From NCBI RefSeq assembly GCF_035621135.1, contig NZ_CP141728.1, positions 2,356,001-2,420,000 of the forward strand: a stretch of 64,000 bases of DNA, written 5' to 3'. The notes below the pieces were generated by a model, which worked only from the letters and a program-made list of their open reading frames with translations, did no database searches and was not told the origin of the DNA. A program made the translations under genes and the position numbers. Source of the stretch: Sinanaerobacter sp. ZZT-01. Its GTDB lineage: Bacteria > Bacillota > Clostridia > Peptostreptococcales > Anaerovoracaceae. How positions within the stretch are numbered: the stretch's first letter is position 1; each line of letters opens with the position of its first letter. Positions 2,825 through 62,920 of this stretch are shown in pieces.

Positions 2825-3637
2825 TTATGCAATCTTTAGGGACTGAATCCTGTACTGTACAGGACTTAGTCCTTTTAATTTACTTTTAATCCGTCTGTTA
2901 TTGTAATAGTATATGTAACTTTCAAGCTCTAAAATAAAATGTTCTGTGCTTTCAAATTTATGTTTGTAAAACATTTCTGTCTTTAATATGCCAAAGAAAT
3001 TCTCCATGACTGAATTATCCAGACAATTTCCTTTTCTGGACATACTTTGCTTAATGCCTTTTTCTTTTAATCTAAATTGATATTTTTTCATCTGATATTG
3101 CCAACCTTGGTCAGAATGCAGAAGAAGGTCTATATTATTAGGTATTTTTTTAAACGCTTTATCTAGCATATCCATTGTTTGACTAAAATTAGGGCTTCTA
3201 GATATGTTGTAACTAATGATTTCACCATTGTATAAATCTAGAATTGGTGATAAATATACTTTCTCTCCATGTAACGAAAATTCTGTTACATCTGTTACCC
3301 ACTTTTGATTTGGCTTATTAGCTTTAAAGTTTCGCTGTAGAAGGTTTGGTGCTACTTCTCCAACTTCACCTTTGTAGGAGCGATATTTTACTTTTCTTAT
3401 TTTACATTTAATACCATTTCTATTCATTAGTTTTAAAACTGTTTTATGATTAATGTTATACCCTTGATTTTTCATCTCAAGTGTAATTCGTCGGTAACCG
3501 TATCTTCCTTTATTATCATGAAAAATTCGCTTAATACATTCTTCTACCTCAGCATATTTGTTCTGTTGTTTCATACGCTTTAGATAATAGTAAAATGTAC
3601 TCCTTGGCATTTTTGCGAATGTCAACAAATCCGTCAA
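2825..3637 (-). CDS. IS3-family transposase OrfB (DDE integrase catalytic part)
   Basis: This is the catalytic half of the IS3-family transposase, with the retroviral-integrase (rve) fold. The DDE residues can be placed: D in KWVTDVTEFS, D in LLLHSDQGWQYQ, and E in LDNSVMENFFGILKTEMF. The C-terminus (YYNNRRIKSKLKGLSPVQYR) is typical. The TTG at 3637 is the first possible start, but the minus-strand frame is open back past the A7 slippery site in orfA, so the working product is probably an OrfAB fusion made by -1 frameshifting. No internal stop or truncation is seen. Confidence 0.92.
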   Translation of the reverse strand: MTDLLTFAKMPRSTFYYYLKRMKQQNKYAEVEECIKRIFHDNKGRYGYRRITLEMKNQGYNINHKTVLKLMNRNGIKCKIRKVKYRSYKGEVGEVAPNLLQRNFKANKPNQKWVTDVTEFSLHGEKVYLSPILDLYNGEIISYNISRSPNFSQTMDMLDKAFKKIPNNIDLLLHSDQGWQYQMKKYQFRLKEKGIKQSMSRKGNCLDNSVMENFFGILKTEMFYKHKFESTEHFILELESYIYYYNNRRIKSKLKGLSPVQYRIQSLKIA

Positions 3638-3672
3638 TTTGTGTATCCGCCTTAATTCATCAATGACGGTAG

Positions 3673-4191
3673 CTATTTCCCATTCTCTCGGGCAATTCTT
3701 TCCTGAACTAAGGCATTTAATTTTTTTAGGTAATCATTCTCCATACGTAAACGCTGAACTTCTGCAATAAGATCTTCTTTTGTCTGCTCATTCATCTGTT
3801 TTGGTTTTGCTTGTTTTTTAGTATCCATGTTTTTACAACGACCTCTACGCTCTTGGCTAAGAGCAGCAGGTCCCTCCTCGTAATATATACGTTCCCATTT
3901 GCTAACAGTAGGATGTTGCGGGATGTTGAACTTTCTAGCTGTTTGTCTTATTGAAAGACCGTTTTCATGCATATATTCTATAACCTTAACCTTAAAATTT
4001 CCATCATAATATTGGGCTTTTGAAACAATTCCTTCAATTCCTAAGGCTTCATAATAGCTAACCCACCTTTTAATGACAGATACATCTGTATTATATAGTA
4101 GTGCTACTTCTTTCTTTGACAGATGTTGCTCAATAACCATGGTTACTGCTTTCATGCGATCCTCATCAGAGAACTTCCTTCTTCTAGACAT
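3673..4191 (-). CDS. IS3-family transposase OrfA (helix-turn-helix protein)
   Basis: OrfA supplies DNA binding for IS3-type transposition and is also the N-terminal part of the OrfAB transposase. The 172 residues contain two helix-turn-helix segments (near residues 20-50, LSKKEVALLYNTDVSVIKRW, and 78-108) and a C-terminal leucine-zipper-like helix (EVQRLRMENDYLKKLNALVQ). An A7 run encoded near residue 156 is a frameshift signal into orfB. Length and architecture match the IS150 group. It looks intact. Confidence 0.92.
   Translation of the reverse strand: MSRRRKFSDEDRMKAVTMVIEQHLSKKEVALLYNTDVSVIKRWVSYYEALGIEGIVSKAQYYDGNFKVKVIEYMHENGLSIRQTARKFNIPQHPTVSKWERIYYEEGPAALSQERRGRCKNMDTKKQAKPKQMNEQTKEDLIAEVQRLRMENDYLKKLNALVQERIARENGK
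3721..3727 (-). other. Programmed -1 frameshift site A7 of the IS3 element
   Basis: On the minus strand the OrfA codons read CTA AAA AAA TTA, giving the slippery heptamer A_AAA_AAA. Slipping back one base enters a frame open through CLSSGKNCPREWEIATVIDE into OrfB. This is the usual way IS3 elements make OrfAB. Confidence 0.8.
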
Positions 4192-5923: not shown

Positions 5924-6549
5924 TTAGAAATTAATTAATTTACTTCTCATTCCAATATTTAAAATAAGTCCAAGTGCAACCATGTTCGTGACGATAGAAC
6001 TGCCACCATAGCTGATAAACGGAAGCGTGATGCCTGTTACCGGCATGAGCCCCATTGTCATACCGATGTTTTCAAAAATCTGAAAGGTAAACATCGCGAA
6101 CATTCCGGTTACGACAAGCGCACCATACAAATTTTTTGCATTATCAATAATCCGCATAATGCGATAGAGAAACATAGTGTAGAGTCCAATTACAATTCCT
6201 CCACCCAGCATGCCTAATTCTTCAACAATTACTGAGAAAATAAAGTTTGATTTTTGAACCGGTAAGAATTTCAATTCTTTCTGCGTGCCTTGAAACAAGC
6301 CTTTTCCAAAAAAGCCTCCCGAGCCAACCGCAATTTTAGATTGTAAGACTTGATAATTTCCAGGCAGGGAAGTGTCAGAAGGATTTAAGAATGCATCAAT
6401 TCTTATTTTTTGATGATAATCCATTAAAAAGTAAGCAATTGGCATACAAGCCGCAATGCCACCCAAGACCTTGGCATATAGTTTGCCATCAACACCTGCA
6501 GCGAATATCATAATTGCTGCGATGACGCAAAAGACTAGAACGTTTCCGA
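5924..6549 (-). pseudogene. Truncated, inverted duplicate of rodA
   Basis: About 205 codons here are nearly identical at DNA level to the 3' two-thirds of the full rodA at 24406-25515, with only a few substitutions (for example Asn for Asp in NAKNLYG and QKSNF). The homology stops at 6549 within the 10-base string ACGTTTCCGA, which occurs in both rodA (25022-25031) and minD (2665-2674). Beyond it the sequence is the minD 3' end read backwards. An apparent start (MIKIIGN) is accidental minD antisense. The fragment lacks the first half of the membrane domains and is not expected to function. Confidence 0.88.
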
Positions 6550-6646
6550 TAATTTTAATCATATTGTAGACCGTATTCTGCGATAAGATATAGTATGAAT
6601 GCTCAGTGCATTATTATAAATTTATAATAATGCACTGAGCATTTTT
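6540..6646 (+). repeat. 107-bp direct repeat, copy 2 (minD 3' end plus terminator)
   Basis: This copy is identical to 2665-2771 but fused to the inverted rodA fragment instead of the rest of minD. Recombination between the copies would delete the IS, the secreted-protein gene and the rodA fragment. Confidence 0.92.
6598..6646. terminator. Duplicated minD terminator
   Basis: This is the same 21-bp-arm hairpin as at 2723, followed by five T. It would now insulate the sensor gene at 6784 from transcription coming from the left. Confidence 0.85.
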
Positions 6647-24405: not shown

Positions 24406-25515
24406 TTAAAAATTAATCAGCTTGCTTCGCATTCCAATATTTAAAATAAGTCCAAGTGCGACCATGTTCGTGACGATAGAACTGCCACCATAGCTGATAA
24501 ACGGAAGCGTGATGCCTGTTACCGGCATGAGCCCCATTGTCATACCGATGTTTTCAAAAATCTGAAAGGTAAACATCGCGAACATTCCGGTTACGACAAG
24601 CGCACCATACAAATCTTTTGCATTATCAATAATCCGCATAATGCGATAGAGAAACATAGTGTAGAGTCCAATTACAATTCCTCCACCCAGCATGCCTAAT
24701 TCTTCAACAATTACTGAGAAAATAAAGTCTGATTTTTGAACCGGTAAGAATTTCAATTCTTTCTGCGTGCCTTGAAACAAGCCTTTTCCAAAAAAGCCTC
24801 CCGAGCCAACCGCAATTTTAGATTGTAAGACTTGATAATTTCCAGGCAGGGAAGTGTCAGAAGGATTTAAGAATGCATCAATTCTTATTTTTTGATGATA
24901 ATCCATTAAAAAGTAAGCAATTGGCATACAAGCCGCAATGCCACCCAAGACCTTGGCATATAGTTTGCCATCAACACCTGCAGCGAATATCATAATTGCT
25001 GCGATGACGCAAAAGACTAGAACGTTTCCGAGGTCTGGCTGAATTAAGATCAAGAATAAGAACGGAGCAGCATAGATTCCACATCGGACAATTCCTTTAA
25101 AAGTGCATAAGTCCTCTTTATGACGACATAGAAAATGAGCAAACATCAGTATAAAAGTAATTTTAACAAGTTCAGCAGGCTGTACGTTAATCGGTCCAAA
25201 GTTCAGCCAGCCGCGTGCTCCTTTCTGAGAGCTGCCAAGACCTGGAATATAGACACAAAGAAGTAATAGGATTGATGTAACGTAGAACACTTTCTCCAAC
25301 TTTTTGAATATGTTATAATCAAAAAGTAGGATGACTGCAATGGCAAAAATGCCGATTACATAAGCAATCAACTGTATCTGCATATCCCGGTTAAAGACAA
25401 AGTGTTCTGCATAGGCAGTACTTCCTATCATAGTAACGCTGATTGCTGCAAAAAAAACTGTAAGAATCAGCAGTGTTTTATCAATATTTTTAAGCAAATT
25501 TACAAAATAGTTCAT
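24406..25515 (-). CDS. rodA: RodA, SEDS peptidoglycan polymerase (full length)
   Basis: RodA polymerises glycan strands for cell elongation together with PBP2. The 369 residues contain about ten membrane segments and SEDS hallmarks: QKGARGWLNFGPINVQPAELVKI (split here: GARGWLNFGP, QPAELVK), PDLGNVLVF with the catalytic Asp, and GITLPFISYGGSS near the end. It is on the opposite strand to its usual partners mrdA and minD at 1-2.7 kb. A partial copy of it lies at 5924. This is the functional copy. Confidence 0.95.
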   Translation of the reverse strand: MNYFVNLLKNIDKTLLILTVFFAAISVTMIGSTAYAEHFVFNRDMQIQLIAYVIGIFAIAVILLFDYNIFKKLEKVFYVTSILLLLCVYIPGLGSSQKGARGWLNFGPINVQPAELVKITFILMFAHFLCRHKEDLCTFKGIVRCGIYAAPFLFLILIQPDLGNVLVFCVIAAIMIFAAGVDGKLYAKVLGGIAACMPIAYFLMDYHQKIRIDAFLNPSDTSLPGNYQVLQSKIAVGSGGFFGKGLFQGTQKELKFLPVQKSDFIFSVIVEELGMLGGGIVIGLYTMFLYRIMRIIDNAKDLYGALVVTGMFAMFTFQIFENIGMTMGLMPVTGITLPFISYGGSSIVTNMVALGLILNIGMRSKLINF

Positions 25516-48259: not shown

Positions 48260-48940
48260 ATGTATTCTAAGATAAAAACAGCATCTCTTTACGGGTTACA
48301 GCCGGATTTAATTTATGTAGAAACGGATATTTCATTGGGACTGCCTGTATGGAATATAGTTGGCTTGCCTGATCTTTCGGTAAGAGAAGCAAAAGATCGA
48401 ATACGTGCTGCCATTTCAAATATTGGATGCACTTTTCCGGCCAAACGTATCATAGTTAATTTATCTCCCGCTGGTATTAGAAAAGAAGGAACACATTTTG
48501 ATCTGCCCATTGCTGTTGGTGTATTAAGTGCGTTAGATGTAATAAAAAAAGAAAATGCACAAAAGTTTGCCTTTCTGGGAGAGCTCTCTTTGGATGGAAG
48601 CATTCATGCGATACAGGGAGCCCTGCCGCTAGCAATTGGCTTACGAGAACAAGGCGTTAAAAAAATTATTCTTCCGATAAAGAATGCTGATGAAATCTCT
48701 TTGGTAGATCATTTAACCATTTATCCGGTAAAACATTTAAAAGAGGTGCTGGAGCTTTTATCTGATTTTAAATTGGTTCAGCCGTATTGCAGCAACAAAG
48801 ATATAAAGAGAAGGGATAAACACAGTAATTCTGCTGATTTTTCAGATGTTTCAGGACAGGAGGCAGCAAAACGCATTTTTCAAATAGCAGCCGCAGCAGC
48901 ACATGACTTTCTTATGTTGTTTAGCTTGCTCATGGTTTAG
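48260..48940 (+). pseudogene. comM: comM, truncated by insertion of the mobile element
   Basis: ComM (YifB family) is a Mg-chelatase-like AAA+ protein linked to DNA uptake and branch migration, normally about 500 residues. The first roughly 218 residues are normal (NIVGLPDLSVREAKDRIRAA, NLSPAGIRKEGTHFDLPIAV, DVSGQEAAKRIFQIAAAAAH). The sequence breaks off after HDFLML, exactly where the Walker A motif GPPGSGKT is expected. The last eight residues (FSLLMV and preceding) come from the element. The remainder of comM is presumably beyond the right end of the window. Confidence 0.9.
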
Positions 48941-49124: not shown

Positions 49125-49164
49125 GAGAAAAGAGATTAAGGATTTATCCTTAATCTCTTTTCTC
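49125..49164 (-). terminator. Hairpin overlapping the recombinase stop codon
   Basis: A perfect 19-bp inverted repeat with a 2-base loop (GAGAAAAGAGATTAAGGAT / ATCCTTAATCTCTTTTCTC) contains part of the TGA stop at 49163-49165. It can act as a terminator facing comM. Confidence 0.75.
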
Positions 49165-51253
49165 AATAATTGTTTTGTTCCTTTACTTGTAAGAACTCGT
49201 CATACAATTTCTGAGCATAGTCCTTGATTTGTTGCATAATTGATATGTTCTCAAAACCTAATTCAGAAACATAACCTAACTCCCCTGTTTGAGTATAAAA
49301 AGCATTACTGTTCAAAATATATTTTGATTGACCTGTTGGCCATTGACTCTTAGTAGTTTTATCAAGCAAGTCATATCGTTCAGCTTCTGATAAATTAGGG
49401 TCATCAAAAGGATGTATAGGTGATGATTCTTGTTTTATGACTTTACCATGTCTGATTTTTTCAGTGTAAGTTTCAGGTGCAAAGTAATCAGGTAGTTTGT
49501 TTCTAAACTTATAAGCAAACTCACTATACCCTGCTAAGATAAGTCCTTGTGCCATCTCTGTTGTTTGTATGATAGGTATTAAGATAACATCAGGGGTTTT
49601 ACCTCCGAGCATGTTTTCAGTTTTACCAAACACTTGAATTTGTGATAAAAGGTTTAAAACTTCTTCCTTAGTGTACTTTTCTTTTTTATTTTCAACAATT
49701 TTAAATTCGGAGAAAATACAATTAAACAACTCGTTTAGTTTTTCAATCATATCTGATGTAGGGGTTTCTAATTGAGAGATACCAAACTTCAAAGCTTTTA
49801 TTTCAGAGTCAACACTTTTTATCCGAATATCAAAATCTTTCTCTTGTTCAGGGTCGTATTCACCTGAACTTAATAAATCTAATAATTTATTTCGACCTGC
49901 CAGCTTGCTTTGAAGTTTTAAATTGAGTTCTTGTAGTTCTGCATTATCTAAAGCAGAAGGGTTCTTTAGACGGTTTAAATAACCCTCACACAGGGTTATT
50001 AAAGAGATAATGGTATTTTCATAGTCTGTGATTATAAGTCCGTGTAAATCTTCGTTCATAAGTCTTTCAAGGAAAGCATCCAGTTGATATTGAAACAGAT
50101 TATTGCAATTACAAACAGATGCCCCTTTGGTTGCTTTTGTTGAGCACTTAAAAAACCCACGACCATTATTGTTATCATAAACAAAATGATTACCACAGGT
50201 GCCACACCTAAGTAAATCTTTAAAAGGATGAGATGGGAGATTTAAACCTATTTTAGATTCAGGTGTAGTACGTCTTTTTTCCATTGCTTTTTGTGCTTTA
50301 TCCCATAATTCGGGTGTGACAATAGCAGGTAGGTCAGCAGTTTCTTTTAACCTCTCTTTATAATCTTTTCTGATAGTTGCAGAATTTAGCTTTTCAAAAA
50401 GAGGTCCAGTAGTATATTTACCAGAGATATTAAATCCTTTATATTTTTCATTATGTAGAATTTTACTTATAGAAGAAGTGTTAAAAGGTTCGCCTGTTTT
50501 AGGTGCAAATATCTTCCTCTTAGCTAATTCATTACTTATGCTTTGATAACCTAAACCATCAACACACCATTGAAATATTTTTTGTACAGCAGGTCCTTCT
50601 ATAGGGTCGATAGTGTAGTAAGGTAATCTATCTTCTTCTTTTTTGTGATAAATATAACCGTAAGTTTTCCCTCGTACTCTGTTTTCATCTATATATTGAA
50701 GTAGTGCAATTTCCTGTGTACGTGAGACTTGTTCTGAATAGGCCATATCCTCATTTAGTCTATTACGAATTAAAGGTAGATGACTAATGTTCCTACTGGT
50801 TAATTTTTGGTCTGAAAAAAAGACATACACTTGAGCAAGTCTTAGTGTACATATAATATCATAAGCATTAATATTTCTAGCCCATCGACTTGTGGTTTTA
50901 CACCAAATTTCCTCAAATTTTGGTTTTTTATTGGGGTCAACATAGGTTGTGTAAGTATTTTGTTTAATCTTTCTATCAGGGTATAAAGGGTGAGGTATTA
51001 TAGCTCCCTCGTCTATTTTAACAACTAAACCTGCATCTTCAAGCATTTTATTAAAACCATCACGATTTAGTTTTGTACCAGATAAACCGTAGTCACAATA
51101 TAATTTTTCAACTGCTTTGTGGGTTTTTTTATACTCAGGTGTACCAAGTAAAAGTTTGAAGAACTTTGGTTGGTTTTTGAAAGATTCTTCTTGTGCTTCT
51201 GCTGTTGTAGAAACACGATAATATAGTGTAACTTTAATTGGCTTCACACTCAT
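49163..51253 (-). CDS. Large serine recombinase (integrase)
   Basis: This is a site-specific recombinase of the large serine family that integrates and excises the element. The resolvase domain begins VTLYYRVSTTAEAQEESFKN with catalytic Ser15. SRWARN (about 120) and the recombinase domain (YGYIYHKKEEDRLPYYTIDP, GYQSISNELAKRKI) follow, then the zinc-ribbon region (LRCGTCGNHFVYDN, with CNCNN) near 350-385 and a C-terminal coiled coil (about 395-480). Length 696 is large but in range. Its gene points toward the comM junction, the usual place for such integrases. Confidence 0.94.
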   Translation of the reverse strand: MSVKPIKVTLYYRVSTTAEAQEESFKNQPKFFKLLLGTPEYKKTHKAVEKLYCDYGLSGTKLNRDGFNKMLEDAGLVVKIDEGAIIPHPLYPDRKIKQNTYTTYVDPNKKPKFEEIWCKTTSRWARNINAYDIICTLRLAQVYVFFSDQKLTSRNISHLPLIRNRLNEDMAYSEQVSRTQEIALLQYIDENRVRGKTYGYIYHKKEEDRLPYYTIDPIEGPAVQKIFQWCVDGLGYQSISNELAKRKIFAPKTGEPFNTSSISKILHNEKYKGFNISGKYTTGPLFEKLNSATIRKDYKERLKETADLPAIVTPELWDKAQKAMEKRRTTPESKIGLNLPSHPFKDLLRCGTCGNHFVYDNNNGRGFFKCSTKATKGASVCNCNNLFQYQLDAFLERLMNEDLHGLIITDYENTIISLITLCEGYLNRLKNPSALDNAELQELNLKLQSKLAGRNKLLDLLSSGEYDPEQEKDFDIRIKSVDSEIKALKFGISQLETPTSDMIEKLNELFNCIFSEFKIVENKKEKYTKEEVLNLLSQIQVFGKTENMLGGKTPDVILIPIIQTTEMAQGLILAGYSEFAYKFRNKLPDYFAPETYTEKIRHGKVIKQESSPIHPFDDPNLSEAERYDLLDKTTKSQWPTGQSKYILNSNAFYTQTGELGYVSELGFENISIMQQIKDYAQKLYDEFLQVKEQNNY

Positions 51254-60217: not shown

Positions 60218-60814
60218 ATGGAACAGTATAGTAGTTTATCAGATATATTTGGTATCGTAGTTTTTGAAATGATAAGAAGATTGGGTACTAAGAATGAAAA
60301 GAAGGCTTATGAAATCATATTTCGTAATCTAGCAAGAGATATGAATCAAAATCGTAAATTATCTTGGTTTAAGATAGAGAGTGAAGATATAGAAGATAAG
60401 GGTATTTCGTTTATAATTGATTTTTATAAGAAAGTAATACCATCTGAGTTCTTAGTTATTACTTATGTAGATATATTGGGTAAATCTGGTATCACAATAG
60501 ATAGGTTTAAAACAGAGGAAGACGTGTTATCTTTCGTGGATACTCAATCACCAGAAGACCCCAAACCAATCATTGTCTCCAATAACACTTTGTTAGAGAT
60601 AGTAGATACAAACACACCGTTAGGTGTGAAAAGGGTATTAAGAGAAGCAGGGTATCCAGTAAGCAAAACCCTAAAAGACCTTTATCAGGATGATTTATAC
60701 ATGCAAGAGGATTATTGGGATATGATAAAAGAAGATAAAATCCTTATCCTTCAAACATCCTCAAAACAATTTACTAAAACTACTCAGGAAGACCTTGAGA
60801 GGTATCTTCTTTAA
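60218..60814 (+). CDS. Unknown protein, 198 residues
   Basis: Alpha/beta pattern with a hydrophobic helix near the start (LSDIFGIVVFEMIRRLG) and central strands (EFLVITYVDILGKSGITI). Ribosome binding site GAGGAAGG. No motif recognised. Followed by a long hairpin at 60836. Confidence 0.58.
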   Translation: MEQYSSLSDIFGIVVFEMIRRLGTKNEKKAYEIIFRNLARDMNQNRKLSWFKIESEDIEDKGISFIIDFYKKVIPSEFLVITYVDILGKSGITIDRFKTEEDVLSFVDTQSPEDPKPIIVSNNTLLEIVDTNTPLGVKRVLREAGYPVSKTLKDLYQDDLYMQEDYWDMIKEDKILILQTSSKQFTKTTQEDLERYLL

Positions 60815-60835
60815 ATTACATATATTTTTTGTACC

Positions 60836-60870
60836 GTAAGGGGGAGGTGTCTACGACACCTCCCCCTTAC
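60836..60870. repeat. Perfect 16-bp hairpin, GC-rich
   Basis: GTAAGGGGGAGGTGTC-TAC-GACACCTCCCCCTTAC. The most stable structure in this AT-rich element; no T-run follows. Possible terminator or RNA 3' end. Confidence 0.8.
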
Positions 60871-61355
60871 TCTGTAATTAGATTGATTTAGTGATTTAGG
60901 TTAATTAGGGTGTGTTAATAGAGGGTATAGCATAGCAGCACAGAAAGGGTTATAATGGTCGTAGGCAGGCTATAAGGACTTCATAGGGTAAAATTCCGTA
61001 GATAAGTATTAAAAGGGTATTCAGTGAGCTCGTAGAGCCTTCAATACCTGTAGGGTTTATTCAATATTATCGAGGGTAAATCAGAGGTAAGGTTTTTCTA
61101 AACATAATCACATCCTAAAGGTAAGATTACTTGTTTTTCAAGGTAAGATTTTTCTGACCAATATTTTCTTCAAGGGTAAGATTACTTGATAAAGTCCTTC
61201 TGTTTTCTTATTTAAGGGTATATTTAAGAACCTACTTTAACATACTCAAAGATAACTTACATAATAACATCTATGCTTTTTTCTTGTCGAAAACCTTTAT
61301 ACCCGTTATACTGTACAAGAGTATCTTTCACAAAAGATAAAGAGGGTAATAAAGT
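60871..61355 (+). promoter_or_regulatory. Long leader of the ART-HD gene with GGTAAG repeats and a promoter
   Basis: No gene in these 485 bases. A promoter with TTGTCG at 61284-61289 and TATACT at 61307-61312 (17-bp spacing) lies 44 bp before the ATG. Upstream, many copies of A/G-GGTAA occur, with a 56-bp unit repeated at 61085 and 61141. The start codon at 61356 follows AGAGGGTAAT. Confidence 0.55.
61085..61188 (+). repeat. Two imperfect 56-bp units built of GGTAAG motifs
   Basis: Unit 1 (from 61085): AGGTAAGGTTTTTCT, a 17-base spacer, then AAGGTAAGATTACTTG. Unit 2 (from 61141): AGGTAAGATTTTTCT, a 16-base spacer, then AAGGGTAAGATTACTTG. Spacers differ, so motifs are conserved, as expected for protein-binding sites. 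Confidence 0.7.
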
Positions 61356-62714
61356 ATGACTATAAGTGACCTGATTTTAAATGTCAAAGCCTTAGGTTTT
61401 GATTCCGTGATTTATCAATCAGATATAAAAACAGAAGAAGATATAAAGGATTATCAGGGAAAAGGGTATAATGTTTCTCTTACAGAAGAACAGTTTAAAA
61501 ACCAGTTTCCTATTGACCCTTCCTGTGTAGCCTATAGTCCTTCAATCTCAAACAGTTCTTTCTACTTTAATCGTAATACCTTAGCAGCCTTACCACTACA
61601 CCTAGAGTTATTGCAGTTGGGTATGGGAGATTATAAGGAGCAGTTGCCACAGGTTATTGAGAGTAGAGAGCAAGAAGTTCTCAATAATGATTATTTGGGG
61701 TCAATCTTGTCTTTGACTGATTCTATGAAAATAGAATATTTTAATATGTTGATAGAAAAGGGTACAGTAGAAGGTCTTTATACCCTATTCTTCTCTGTCT
61801 ATACTTCTGCTGATTTTGGTTTCAAGGGCATTTCTCCGGAGAATTTTGAATTAATCGTATCTACCAAAACAAAGTCAGATATGAAGAAAACTGAAAACCA
61901 GTTAAAAGACCTACCCGAAACCCTCACAATCTATCGTGGTGAGGGTAGTCAAAGTACTCCTACAAATAAGGCTTACTCTTGGACTTTAGATATAAATATG
62001 GCTAATTTCTTTGCTTGTCGTTTGAGTATGGATGAAGCTCAAATAATAACAGCAAGGGTGAATAAGGATAAAGTTGTAGATTGTTTTATCAAGGACAGTA
62101 ATGAAAAAGAAGTGATAGTAAGACCTTCCGATATTGAAATAGTAGATATGCAGACAATAAAGGGTATTGAAGATTTGGATGACATCTTCCCTGCTGTTAT
62201 AGATACTTATAAAGATTTTAGAGAGACCATGCTTACATTGAACTTTGCCCAGGACTCTTCTGTGCATGGAAAGGAACATACAGCGAGGGTGTTGCTCTTA
62301 TCCCTAATACTATCTGAATTGTTGAATCTACCTCAGTCAGATAGAAAAATACTGTCTACTGCTGCTATCTATCATGACACTAAACGGGTAAATGATAATA
62401 TTGATTTAGAGCATGGGTATTACAGCAGCCTTTATTATCAATCCAACGTAACCAAACCAGACCCCACAGTGTCTTTCTTAATAGAGTATCATTGTAGACC
62501 AGATGATGAGGGTTATGAGGAAATCAAGAGGAACAGGGTATTGAGTAAGAATAGGACTAAAACCCAGTTCTTGTTTAATCTTTTCAAGGATGCAGATGCC
62601 TTAGACAGGGTAAGGTTTGGTCTGCAGGACCTTGACGTGAATCAACTAAGATTACCAGAATCTAAGTCTTTACCTTTAATTGCTCGTATCTGTTTGGAAC
62701 AACTTAAAATCTAA
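61356..62714 (+). CDS. Putative ADP-ribosyltransferase-like domain fused to an HD phosphohydrolase domain
   Basis: 452 residues in three parts. Residues 1-165 are of unknown fold. Residues 185-262 look like an R-S-E class ADP-ribosyltransferase core: TIYRGEG with Arg194, then AYSWTLDINMANFFACR with Ser208-Trp-Thr210, then SNEKEVIVRPSDIEI with an ExE pair at 250 and 252. Residues 295-425 look like an HD hydrolase: SVHGKEHTARV (His304/308), AAIYHDTKR (His340-Asp341), IEYHC (His379) and LFKDADALDRVR (Asp414). The gene has its own promoter and a long leader. A modifying enzyme combined with a nucleotide or phosphoester hydrolase would suit a defence, counter-defence or host-takeover role; that is inference. 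Domain calls are by motif reading only. Confidence 0.62.
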   Translation: MTISDLILNVKALGFDSVIYQSDIKTEEDIKDYQGKGYNVSLTEEQFKNQFPIDPSCVAYSPSISNSSFYFNRNTLAALPLHLELLQLGMGDYKEQLPQVIESREQEVLNNDYLGSILSLTDSMKIEYFNMLIEKGTVEGLYTLFFSVYTSADFGFKGISPENFELIVSTKTKSDMKKTENQLKDLPETLTIYRGEGSQSTPTNKAYSWTLDINMANFFACRLSMDEAQIITARVNKDKVVDCFIKDSNEKEVIVRPSDIEIVDMQTIKGIEDLDDIFPAVIDTYKDFRETMLTLNFAQDSSVHGKEHTARVLLLSLILSELLNLPQSDRKILSTAAIYHDTKRVNDNIDLEHGYYSSLYYQSNVTKPDPTVSFLIEYHCRPDDEGYEEIKRNRVLSKNRTKTQFLFNLFKDADALDRVRFGLQDLDVNQLRLPESKSLPLIARICLEQLKI

Positions 62715-62746
62715 CCCACACAATCAATATAAATCATATTTCACGT

Positions 62747-62782
62747 AGAGAAGGGTGTGCTGCCGGCAGCACACCCTTCTCT
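62747..62782. repeat. Perfect 36-bp palindrome after the ART-HD gene
   Basis: Two 18-bp arms (AGAGAAGGGTGTGCTGCC and its complement) with no spacer, followed by TTTTAGA. Probably a terminator, though the absence of a loop is unusual. Confidence 0.8.
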
Positions 62783-62886
62783 TTTAGATTGAGGTAAATA
62801 GGTTGTATATTGATAATAAGTGTTTAGGGTATTAAGGAGAATCACATTTCACTCAAGGATATATCTTGAAAAAATATAAAATTTTG

Positions 62887-62920
62887 ATGTCTTTCTGAAA
62901 ACTTTCAGAAAGACATTTTT
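62887..62920. terminator. Terminator-like hairpin
   Basis: ATGTCTTTCTGAA / TTCAGAAAGACAT arms with a 4-base centre, followed by T5 and ATTAT. Confidence 0.75.

Follow-up and report, generated by a model that had tools for sequence, protein, structure and literature searches.

A mobile-element protein joining a predicted ADP-ribosyltransferase to an HD phosphohydrolase, and its HD relatives beside sirtuin and NAD-salvage genes

The window, by which we mean the whole stretch of 64,000 nucleotides analysed here from Sinanaerobacter sp. ZZT-01, carries a gene whose product joins a likely ADP-ribosyltransferase (ART) domain to an HD-type phosphohydrolase domain. Because this domain order recurs in plasmids and in other contigs, it is more than a product of chance, and ART-HD proteins are a genuine family. 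Judging from predicted folds, conserved residues and the company of related genes, we regard it as rather probable that the window protein is a two-step enzyme leading from NAD+ to processed ADP-ribose. Its ART part would transfer ADP-ribose, and its HD part would then hydrolyse the pyrophosphate. If so, it would hint at a route of ADP-ribose processing in bacteria about which little is known.

Table 1. Features of the ART-HD gene, its product and its surroundings (window positions)
Feature	Position	Strand	Remarks
comM, 5' part, cut by the element	48260..48940	+	ends at window 48940 (genome 2404940)
Serine recombinase of the element	49163..51253	-	PHROG integrase 3.3e-53; Pfam Recombinase 8e-19
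Leader, 541 nt	60815..61355	+	weak two-copy direct repeats
Perfect 16-nt inverted repeat 3' of upstream gene	60836..60870	.	
ART-HD fusion protein ORF	61356..62714	+	452 aa, ATG start, probably monocistronic; terminator-like inverted repeats on both flanks
N-terminal region, residues 1-183	61356..61904	+	common to some phage ART-only proteins (HMM of region)
Predicted ADP-ribosyltransferase domain, residues ~185-270, R-S-E type	61908..62165	+	PHROG 4776; AlphaFold2 model, VIA-align
Arg194 (YRG)	61935..61937	+	23/23 fusions
Ser208-Trp209-Thr210	61977..61985	+	S 20/23, W 23/23, T 22/23
Glu250-Lys-Glu252 (ExE)	62103..62111	+	E250 16/23, E252 23/23
HD phosphohydrolase domain, residues 280-452	62193..62711	+	Pfam HD; VIA-align Z 10-12 to HD enzymes
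His304 and His308	62265..62279	+	23/23
His340-Asp341 (HD dyad)	62373..62378	+	23/23
His353	62412..62414	+	23/23
His379	62490..62492	+	23/23
Asp414 within D-x-D-x-x-D-R motif	62595..62597	+	22/22
Terminator-like palindrome 3' of gene, 16 pairs	62747..62782	+	

The gene, its element and the two predicted domains

An earlier note on this DNA had placed the gene on an integrative element, and this is what the genome contains: comM is split, and a serine recombinase adjoins its 5' part. The 3' part of comM resumes near genome position 2498606, so that the element measures about 93.7 kb, with approximate ends. From the comM junction at its integrase end, it is about 12 kb to the ART-HD gene. The same note had described a promoter of its own, a long repeat-bearing leader and a strong palindrome after the gene. 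The leader (with weak repeats) and the palindrome are there; the promoter-like sites at 61237-61265 and 61284-61312 prove little, as 17 such matches occur in 60700-62900 against 8.7 expected. Rfam gives three weak matches near the gene, none of them at gathering score. Among 93 proteins encoded next to fusions other than L126, L055 and L080, the commonest families reach 5 members each; of the 25 families listed, none is related to NAD and none is an enriched defence family. Since terminator-like repeats lie on both flanks and no conserved neighbour was found for the fusions, the gene probably acts alone.

AlphaFold2, run on alignment A4, predicts an ART fold, for which match scores are low, and after it an HD fold, at pLDDT 89.4 and pTM 0.82. 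This alignment holds 23 fusion rows, several of which are close kin, L125 and L126 being near-identical. An ART fold around Arg194, Ser208 and Glu252 had been expected, and the segment folded alone (residues 125-275) reaches pLDDT 89.9. In VIA-align, 48 of the 50 entries listed for this segment are named ART-superfamily enzymes, many of them PARP1/2, at low Z of 4.1-5.9; out of 998 chains, 4 reach Z 5 and none reaches 8. The top rows are Tpt1 (8tg3, Z 5.9, rmsd 3.2, 88 aligned) and diphtheria toxin (7k7e, 5.5, 3.8, 98); KptA (9ld4) follows at Z 5.3, with rmsd 3.1 and 78 aligned. Foldseek against the PDB, a check that had been proposed for ART and HD families, gave no significant match, the best E being 0.016 for the ART part (top rows Tre toxins and PARPs, 0.016-0.04) and 0.063 for the whole protein. 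When predicted structures of viral proteins are compared, an uncharacterised protein from Gordonia phage Octobien14 scores best (E 9e-6). At the level of sequence, residues 143-262 match PHROG 4776, a phage family of unknown function (E 3.2e-16), and residues 173-255 match PHROG 25265 (E 5.4e-6). The motif of R-S-E class ARTs consists of a conserved Arg, then S-x-T, then the glutamate of (E/Q)xE, and R194, S208 and E252 of the window protein follow this order. We consider an ART fold in the window protein likely.

Tre toxins and Tpt1/KptA are thus the nearest ART folds by Foldseek and VIA-align, with weak scores, and a search of PDB sequences with the ART profile gives no match up to E 10. We considered identity with KptA/Tpt1 because Tpt1 tops the VIA-align rows. 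It was rejected: Z gaps below 1 count as ties, and the protein's conserved residues fit the R-S-E pattern. Searches of PDB sequences gave nothing significant (best E 0.39 for the protein and 0.063 for the fusion profile).

The second half is of HD type both by profile and by fold, as had been claimed. Pfam HD scores 21.9 bits over residues 307-392, against a cut-off of 22, and 8 of 10 other members scanned pass this cut-off, L120 and L124 having no HD match there. Matches to NCBIfam were weak and below cut-off for the fusions scanned, with none for L046. In VIA-align, residues ~280-452 match exopolyphosphatase 8jgx (Z 12.3, rmsd 3.4, 137 aligned), 2pq7 (Z 12.3, 3.8, 141) and phosphodiesterases (PDEs) of Legionella: 6b7p (Z 11.9, 3.1, 156), 6ryb (11.6, 3.0, 153), 5t8c (11.6, 2.6, 148) and 7ppo (11.3, 3.0, 156). 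The Legionella PDEs are tied in Z with the exopolyphosphatase and with HD-GYP proteins, and helical folds can give Z 10-12 without kinship.

Every residue named in the earlier note stands at its position, and their conservation among homologues is high (Table 1), E250 being the most variable. In A4, R344 and D383 are also found in 23 of 23 rows, and D412, like D414, in 22 of 22 (one row is truncated). A 35-row alignment, widened by the plasmid fusions and by six rows of greater divergence and lacking L055, keeps H304, H308, H340, D341, R344, H353, H379 and D383 invariant, with R194 and E252 at 90% or more. In L066, L082 and L088 the ART motifs are eroded, as judged by eye, and the HD set is full. 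The HD half therefore appears to be under firmer constraint. The H...HD...D motif of the HD superfamily is present in the window protein and in its family. A longer set, H...HD...H...H...D, is described as diagnostic for a dinuclear metal site (PMC8177086, in part), and H308, H340-D341, H353, H379 and D414 come in this order, with a spacing unlike that of YqeK. The spaced series was missed by pattern in 6 of 95 rows, namely L036, L039 and L040, which have long inserts, and the viral L128-L130.

Occurrence and origin of the fusion

A search of 72,556 plasmid records gives 26 matches, 8 of which cover both domains. The eight plasmids measure 360-898 kb and belong to Pontibacillus, Brevibacillus, Alkaliphilus, Aneurinibacillus, Jeotgalibacillus and Paenibacillus; two of the records are, judging from their length, the same P. 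polymyxa plasmid. Single-query scans of viral and genome contigs yielded no match, and success came with an alignment of 8 rows (A3). Its profile found 259 relatives among 287 candidate stretches of genome contigs, and the best 80 of these comprise 27 ART-HD fusions and 53 loci without ART. In viral contigs it found 9 loci, 2 of them fusions and 7 viral HD loci. The resulting 29 fusion contigs (27 genomic, 2 viral) were classed by ORF length and motif; the Aneurinibacillus plasmid is counted both here and among the eight plasmid records. Within the order, 15 of 297 genomes match, the full fusion occurring solely in the host and in one further genome, G118 (34% over residues 110-447). Six further genomes match in the HD part at E 1e-14 or better, with open frames of 216-242 aa; another five show just a weak match to the HD region, while in G184 and G158 it is the ART part that matches. 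At class level, 12 of 391 genomes match alignment A4 at E 1e-12, the window's own genome counted. The family is not common.

The belief that no protein of this order had been described agrees with the open-access literature searched, where we found no description. Nor is such a fusion mentioned in the available parts of PMC9503650 and PMC7824862, which review the NAD+-ADPr systems of viruses and jumbo phages.

The N-terminal 165 or so residues had been called unknown. That novelty is rejected, since the region matches phage ART-only proteins. An HMM of fusion residues 1-183 finds a protein of Lysinibacillus phage LysYB1 (E 1.2e-27), a Bacillus licheniformis plasmid protein (6e-19) and the viral contig protein L134 (9.2e-17), and more weakly L031 (9.6e-4), L135 (0.018) and L144 (5.8), where the best of 400 shuffled decoys reaches 0.098; L142 and L030 are not among the matches listed. 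The phage ARTs of PHROG 4776 (LysYB1 and mycobacteriophage proteins) share a homologous ART domain with the window protein, and in LysYB1 and two others the N-terminal region is homologous as well. They differ from it in extent: among those listed, the match is confined to the ART part. Indeed, 56 of 50,697 phage records match the window protein, all 40 matches listed fall in the ART region, and the HD region alone matches none of the 50,697 records. Because the N-terminal region is common to some phage ART-only proteins, the fusion appears to have arisen by adding an HD domain to an ART of phage type that already had its N-terminal region.

How often this happened was approached with trees. 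A quick HD tree of 95 rows (without L064, L080 and L133, which have no usable segment, and without L037, the same gene as L055) places the window fusion and L045-L049 together with SirTM-linked HDs on one side of a split supported at 98*, the other 29 fusion rows being on the opposite side. The fusion label needs 6 changes on this tree, at least 2 of them being forced by the starred branches. A single fusion clade is not rejected by the AU test (p 0.167), and an ART tree (27 fusions cut by pattern and 8 ART-only proteins) nests the window's group in the other fusions with 83/91 support. These data are compatible with a single origin followed by loss of the ART and also with several separate fusions.

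HD relatives without ART and their neighbours

A survey of the genomic neighbourhood of homologues, as had been proposed, was thus without a conserved neighbour for the fusions and gave a company of NAD-related genes for many of the HD relatives without ART. Many stand-alone HD genes are immediately preceded by genes for one or two proteins of some 285 aa. Two of these, both from locus L074, match the SirTM sirtuin structure 5a3a (E 1.1e-43 and 4.5e-47). With the L074 sirtuins and downstream proteins as tblastn seeds (E 1e-6), SirTM was found within 6 kb in 32 of the 53 loci without ART, nicotinate phosphoribosyltransferase in 15, nicotinamidase in 11 and any of them in 33; these counts are inflated by the near-copies L099, L101 and L102, and 3 of the 11 nicotinamidases are fused domains (L109, L114, L124). 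The remaining 20 loci have none of the three partners by these seeds. Near the fusions the count is 0 of 29 loci, and near viral HD genes 0 of 7, in flanks of up to 10 kb, several contigs being shorter. No SirTM like those of L074 was found in the host genome, which is a weak negative.

Pfam tallies point the same way. SIR2 is the commonest family upstream (11 of 58 neighbours tallied out of 62), and NAPRTase (14) and isochorismatase (9) occur among 58 of 63 downstream neighbours; the near-copies L101 and L102 and one protein of L121 were left out. In two annotated plasmids the order is Sir2, Sir2, HD, NAPRT, isochorismatase, with a small gene before the last in one of them. At the catalytic position of sirtuins His is usual. 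Of 58 neighbours, 22 passed a first pattern for this site; 14 of them have Glu and 4 have Gln, and 4 were unscored, that of L083 being no sirtuin as judged by eye.

The HD domain is also fused to members of this company. In L109, L114 and L124 it is joined to an isochorismatase (nicotinamidase)-type domain (the HD itself is unscored in L124), and in L120 to a SirTM-like domain, for which the deacylase profile gives 4.5e-7, below cut-off. Two stand-alone HD members had no match in NCBIfam. We found no description of a SirTM-HD operon in the open-access literature searched, and the terms "HD domain" and "nicotinamidase" are absent from PMC4518038 and PMC11490716. Based on the SirTM/NAD-salvage operons and on the nicotinamidase-type and SirTM-like fusions, the HD domain seems to process ADP-ribose for an NAD+-consuming transferase, either a separate sirtuin (in trans) or a fused ART (in cis). 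For the HD of the window protein, its place with the SirTM-linked HDs in the quick tree is a further argument. The company fits free or protein-bound ADP-ribose, O-acyl-ADP-ribose or NAD+ alike as the substrate.

In L162 an HD domain is fused to a different N-terminal domain, ART-like by eye only. The first reading of the window overlooked the link to sirtuins and NAD salvage, a link that suggests a probable class of substrate for the HD half.

Proposed activity and its alternatives

The two-step activity that we favour would proceed as follows. The R-S-E ART, to judge from its fold and conserved residues, would split NAD+ and place ADP-ribose on a target, probably a protein. The HD domain, to judge from its domain company, would then cut the pyrophosphate of this ADP-ribose. 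If it acts on the target, a phosphoribosyl mark and AMP would result; if it acts after release, the products would be AMP and ribose phosphate. Stand-alone HD proteins would perform the second step for SirTM sirtuins, whose by-product nicotinamide would be salvaged by the neighbouring nicotinamidase and nicotinate phosphoribosyltransferase.

Such a protein possibly works like the mART-PDE pair of Legionella SidE. There, the mART puts ADP-ribose on Arg42 of ubiquitin and the PDE cuts the phosphoanhydride, leaving phosphoribose and releasing AMP (PMC10143409, in part). The PDE resembles classical HD domains and works with H277, E340 and H407 through a histidine-based intermediate (PMC6941232, in part). 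Like SidE, DupA and DupB, the window protein has a mono-ADP-ribosyltransferase and an HD-fold PDE in one chain, in its case as predicted folds, and the leading VIA-align rows for its HD part include SdeD (6b7p), DupA, lpg1496 and SdeA (Z 11.3-11.9, rmsd 2.6-3.1). There are also differences. The domain order of SidE is DUB, PDE, mART, CTD (PMC10143409, in part), whereas in the window protein the order is reversed, ART then HD, and a chain of 452 residues has no room for further SidE domains. Moreover, the fold matches are tied with ordinary HD enzymes, and no SidE chain is found up to E 10 among the PDB sequence matches to the window protein or the fusion profile. Because of the reverse order and the H...HD...H...H...D series, we propose a possible likeness in action to SidE and not membership in it.

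A broader proposal, about which we are more doubtful than confident, is that bacterial or phage macromolecules receive a phosphoribosyl mark or cross-link from the fusion, which would be part of a wider, undescribed HD family. In Bacillota, Bacteroidota and other groups, members of this family would process ADP-ribose as partners of sirtuin and ART transferases. To our knowledge, phosphoribosylation chemistry is so far known from the ubiquitin ligases of one pathogen.

The HD domain might instead clear free product, as a pyrophosphatase for ADP-ribose or O-acyl-ADP-ribose that substitutes for a Nudix enzyme, with the ART being chiefly an NADase or a conventional transferase. We see this as a possible course, clearly less probable than the two-step activity. 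Nicotinamidase and nicotinate phosphoribosyltransferase nearby make up a salvage pathway, in line with such a role, and HD enzymes that cut diphosphates are known, for example YqeK acting on Ap4A (PMC8177086, in part). Further, an HD phosphatase near ADP-ribosylglycohydrolase systems has been predicted to process released ADPr (PMC9503650, in part). It is the nearest printed precedent we have seen for the role of the HD domain; in the available part of that paper it is one of several optional phosphatases beside the glycohydrolase, and fusion to an ART or sirtuin is unmentioned. Fusion to the transferase itself, the ART or, in L120, a SirTM-like domain, suggests on the contrary a hand-over of bound product, and SirTM is described, in the part of PMC11490716 available, with ADP-ribosyltransferase activity only.

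It is also conceivable that the pairing is fortuitous, with the HD domain acting on an unrelated nucleotide (an alarmone or a dNTP) and the ART being regulated by it or merely inherited along with it. Substrates of HD enzymes are very diverse (PMC8177086, in part), and the HD residues stay intact where the ART motifs erode, so the HD domain has a job without the ART. We nevertheless find this improbable, for the three fusion partners (ART, SirTM-like and nicotinamidase) and the operons all concern NAD+ or ADP-ribose. The least chance of all we give to a weapon that depletes NAD+ during phage attack or competition, where the HD domain would destroy ADP-ribose and so block the rebuilding of NAD+ by the phage, as NARP1 does. 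Restriction and TIR-type defence genes do occupy the far end of the element, but they lie at least about 65 kb from the ART-HD gene. Against such a weapon also speak the ART-only relatives carried by phages, the lack of any enriched defence family among the 25 listed for the 93 fusion neighbours, and the PADLOC anti-phage profiles, none of which matches the window protein up to E 0.1. Of six proteins scanned with PADLOC, one, L063, has a weak match to Cas3 (0.0024).

If the two-step activity is real, transfer and processing of ADP-ribose would be combined in one small protein outside the SidE effectors. It would offer a soluble, testable model of phosphoribosylation in ordinary bacteria, and would give both a large HD family and the HD genes beside SirTM sirtuins a suggested function. 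The published partners of SirTM are Zn-Macro, GcvH-L and LplA (PMC11490716, in part), and what our stand-alone HD relatives share with these SirTM/zinc-macrodomain systems is their place behind SirTM genes. The fate of ADP-ribose marks in bacteria that have SirTM and no detected macrodomain thereby becomes a testable question. Twelve genomes of unstated completeness, out of 32 SirTM-HD loci, were searched with Pfam Macro; six have hits somewhere in the genome, and six have no match, so that in these the HD protein could take the place of this published SirTM partner.

HD proteins with sirtuin and ART-like partners

Among the HD loci devoid of ART (L069-L124) there is a gene set composed of SirTM (the ADP-ribosylating sirtuin type), a second sirtuin and HD, which in some of these loci is joined by nicotinamidase and nicotinate phosphoribosyltransferase. 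Judging from the residue pattern, the catalytic His of the second sirtuin is apparently replaced by Glu. This operon is seemingly an undescribed one.

At locus L162, the same HD family is joined to an N-terminal domain unlike that of the window fusion. Its 'LYHIT...IL.SGYLKPS' stretch is ART-like in appearance when inspected by eye; PDB sequence search with L162 gave no relevant match. If the ART-like domain is real, L162 would represent an independent ART-HD pairing.

The scan of viral contigs revealed the ART-HD fusion on two of them (L125 and L126, ~153 kb each). A further viral contig, L127, encodes a protein of this same HD family, 402 aa in total, with a long C-terminal extension.

Gene clusters in the element and the window

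The right end of the ART-HD element, outside the window, harbors a defence cluster (L154:3940-17043, from the same genome). Schlafen AlbA_2 and TPR-S domains were also matched within the element; from position, their carriers are probably the PDC-S50 protein and the next protein.

Within the window, two rodA/ftsW-like fragments, near-identical by eye, flank a diol-dehydratase/microcompartment-like gene cluster, one on each side, as if the cluster arose by insertion or duplication at rodA. An IS3-type transposase pair adjoins the first fragment.

Coordinates of the described features (C1, host genome contig)
Feature	Location	Remark
HD protein with different N-terminal domain	L162:547-2310	
HD protein with C-terminal extension	L127:6434-7639	viral contig
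GmrSD-like protein	within C1:2483940-2497043	defence cluster
Type I RM: REase, MTase, specificity	within C1:2483940-2497043	defence cluster
PDC-S50 protein	within C1:2483940-2497043	PADLOC
Protein weakly matching TIR effector	within C1:2483940-2497043	defence cluster
ThsB-like TIR protein	within C1:2483940-2497043	defence cluster
IS3-type transposase pair	window 2825-4191 (-)	family name by eye
rodA/ftsW-like C-terminal fragment, copy 1	window 5924-6562 (-)	by eye
rodA/ftsW-like C-terminal fragment, copy 2	window 24406-25515 (-)	by eye
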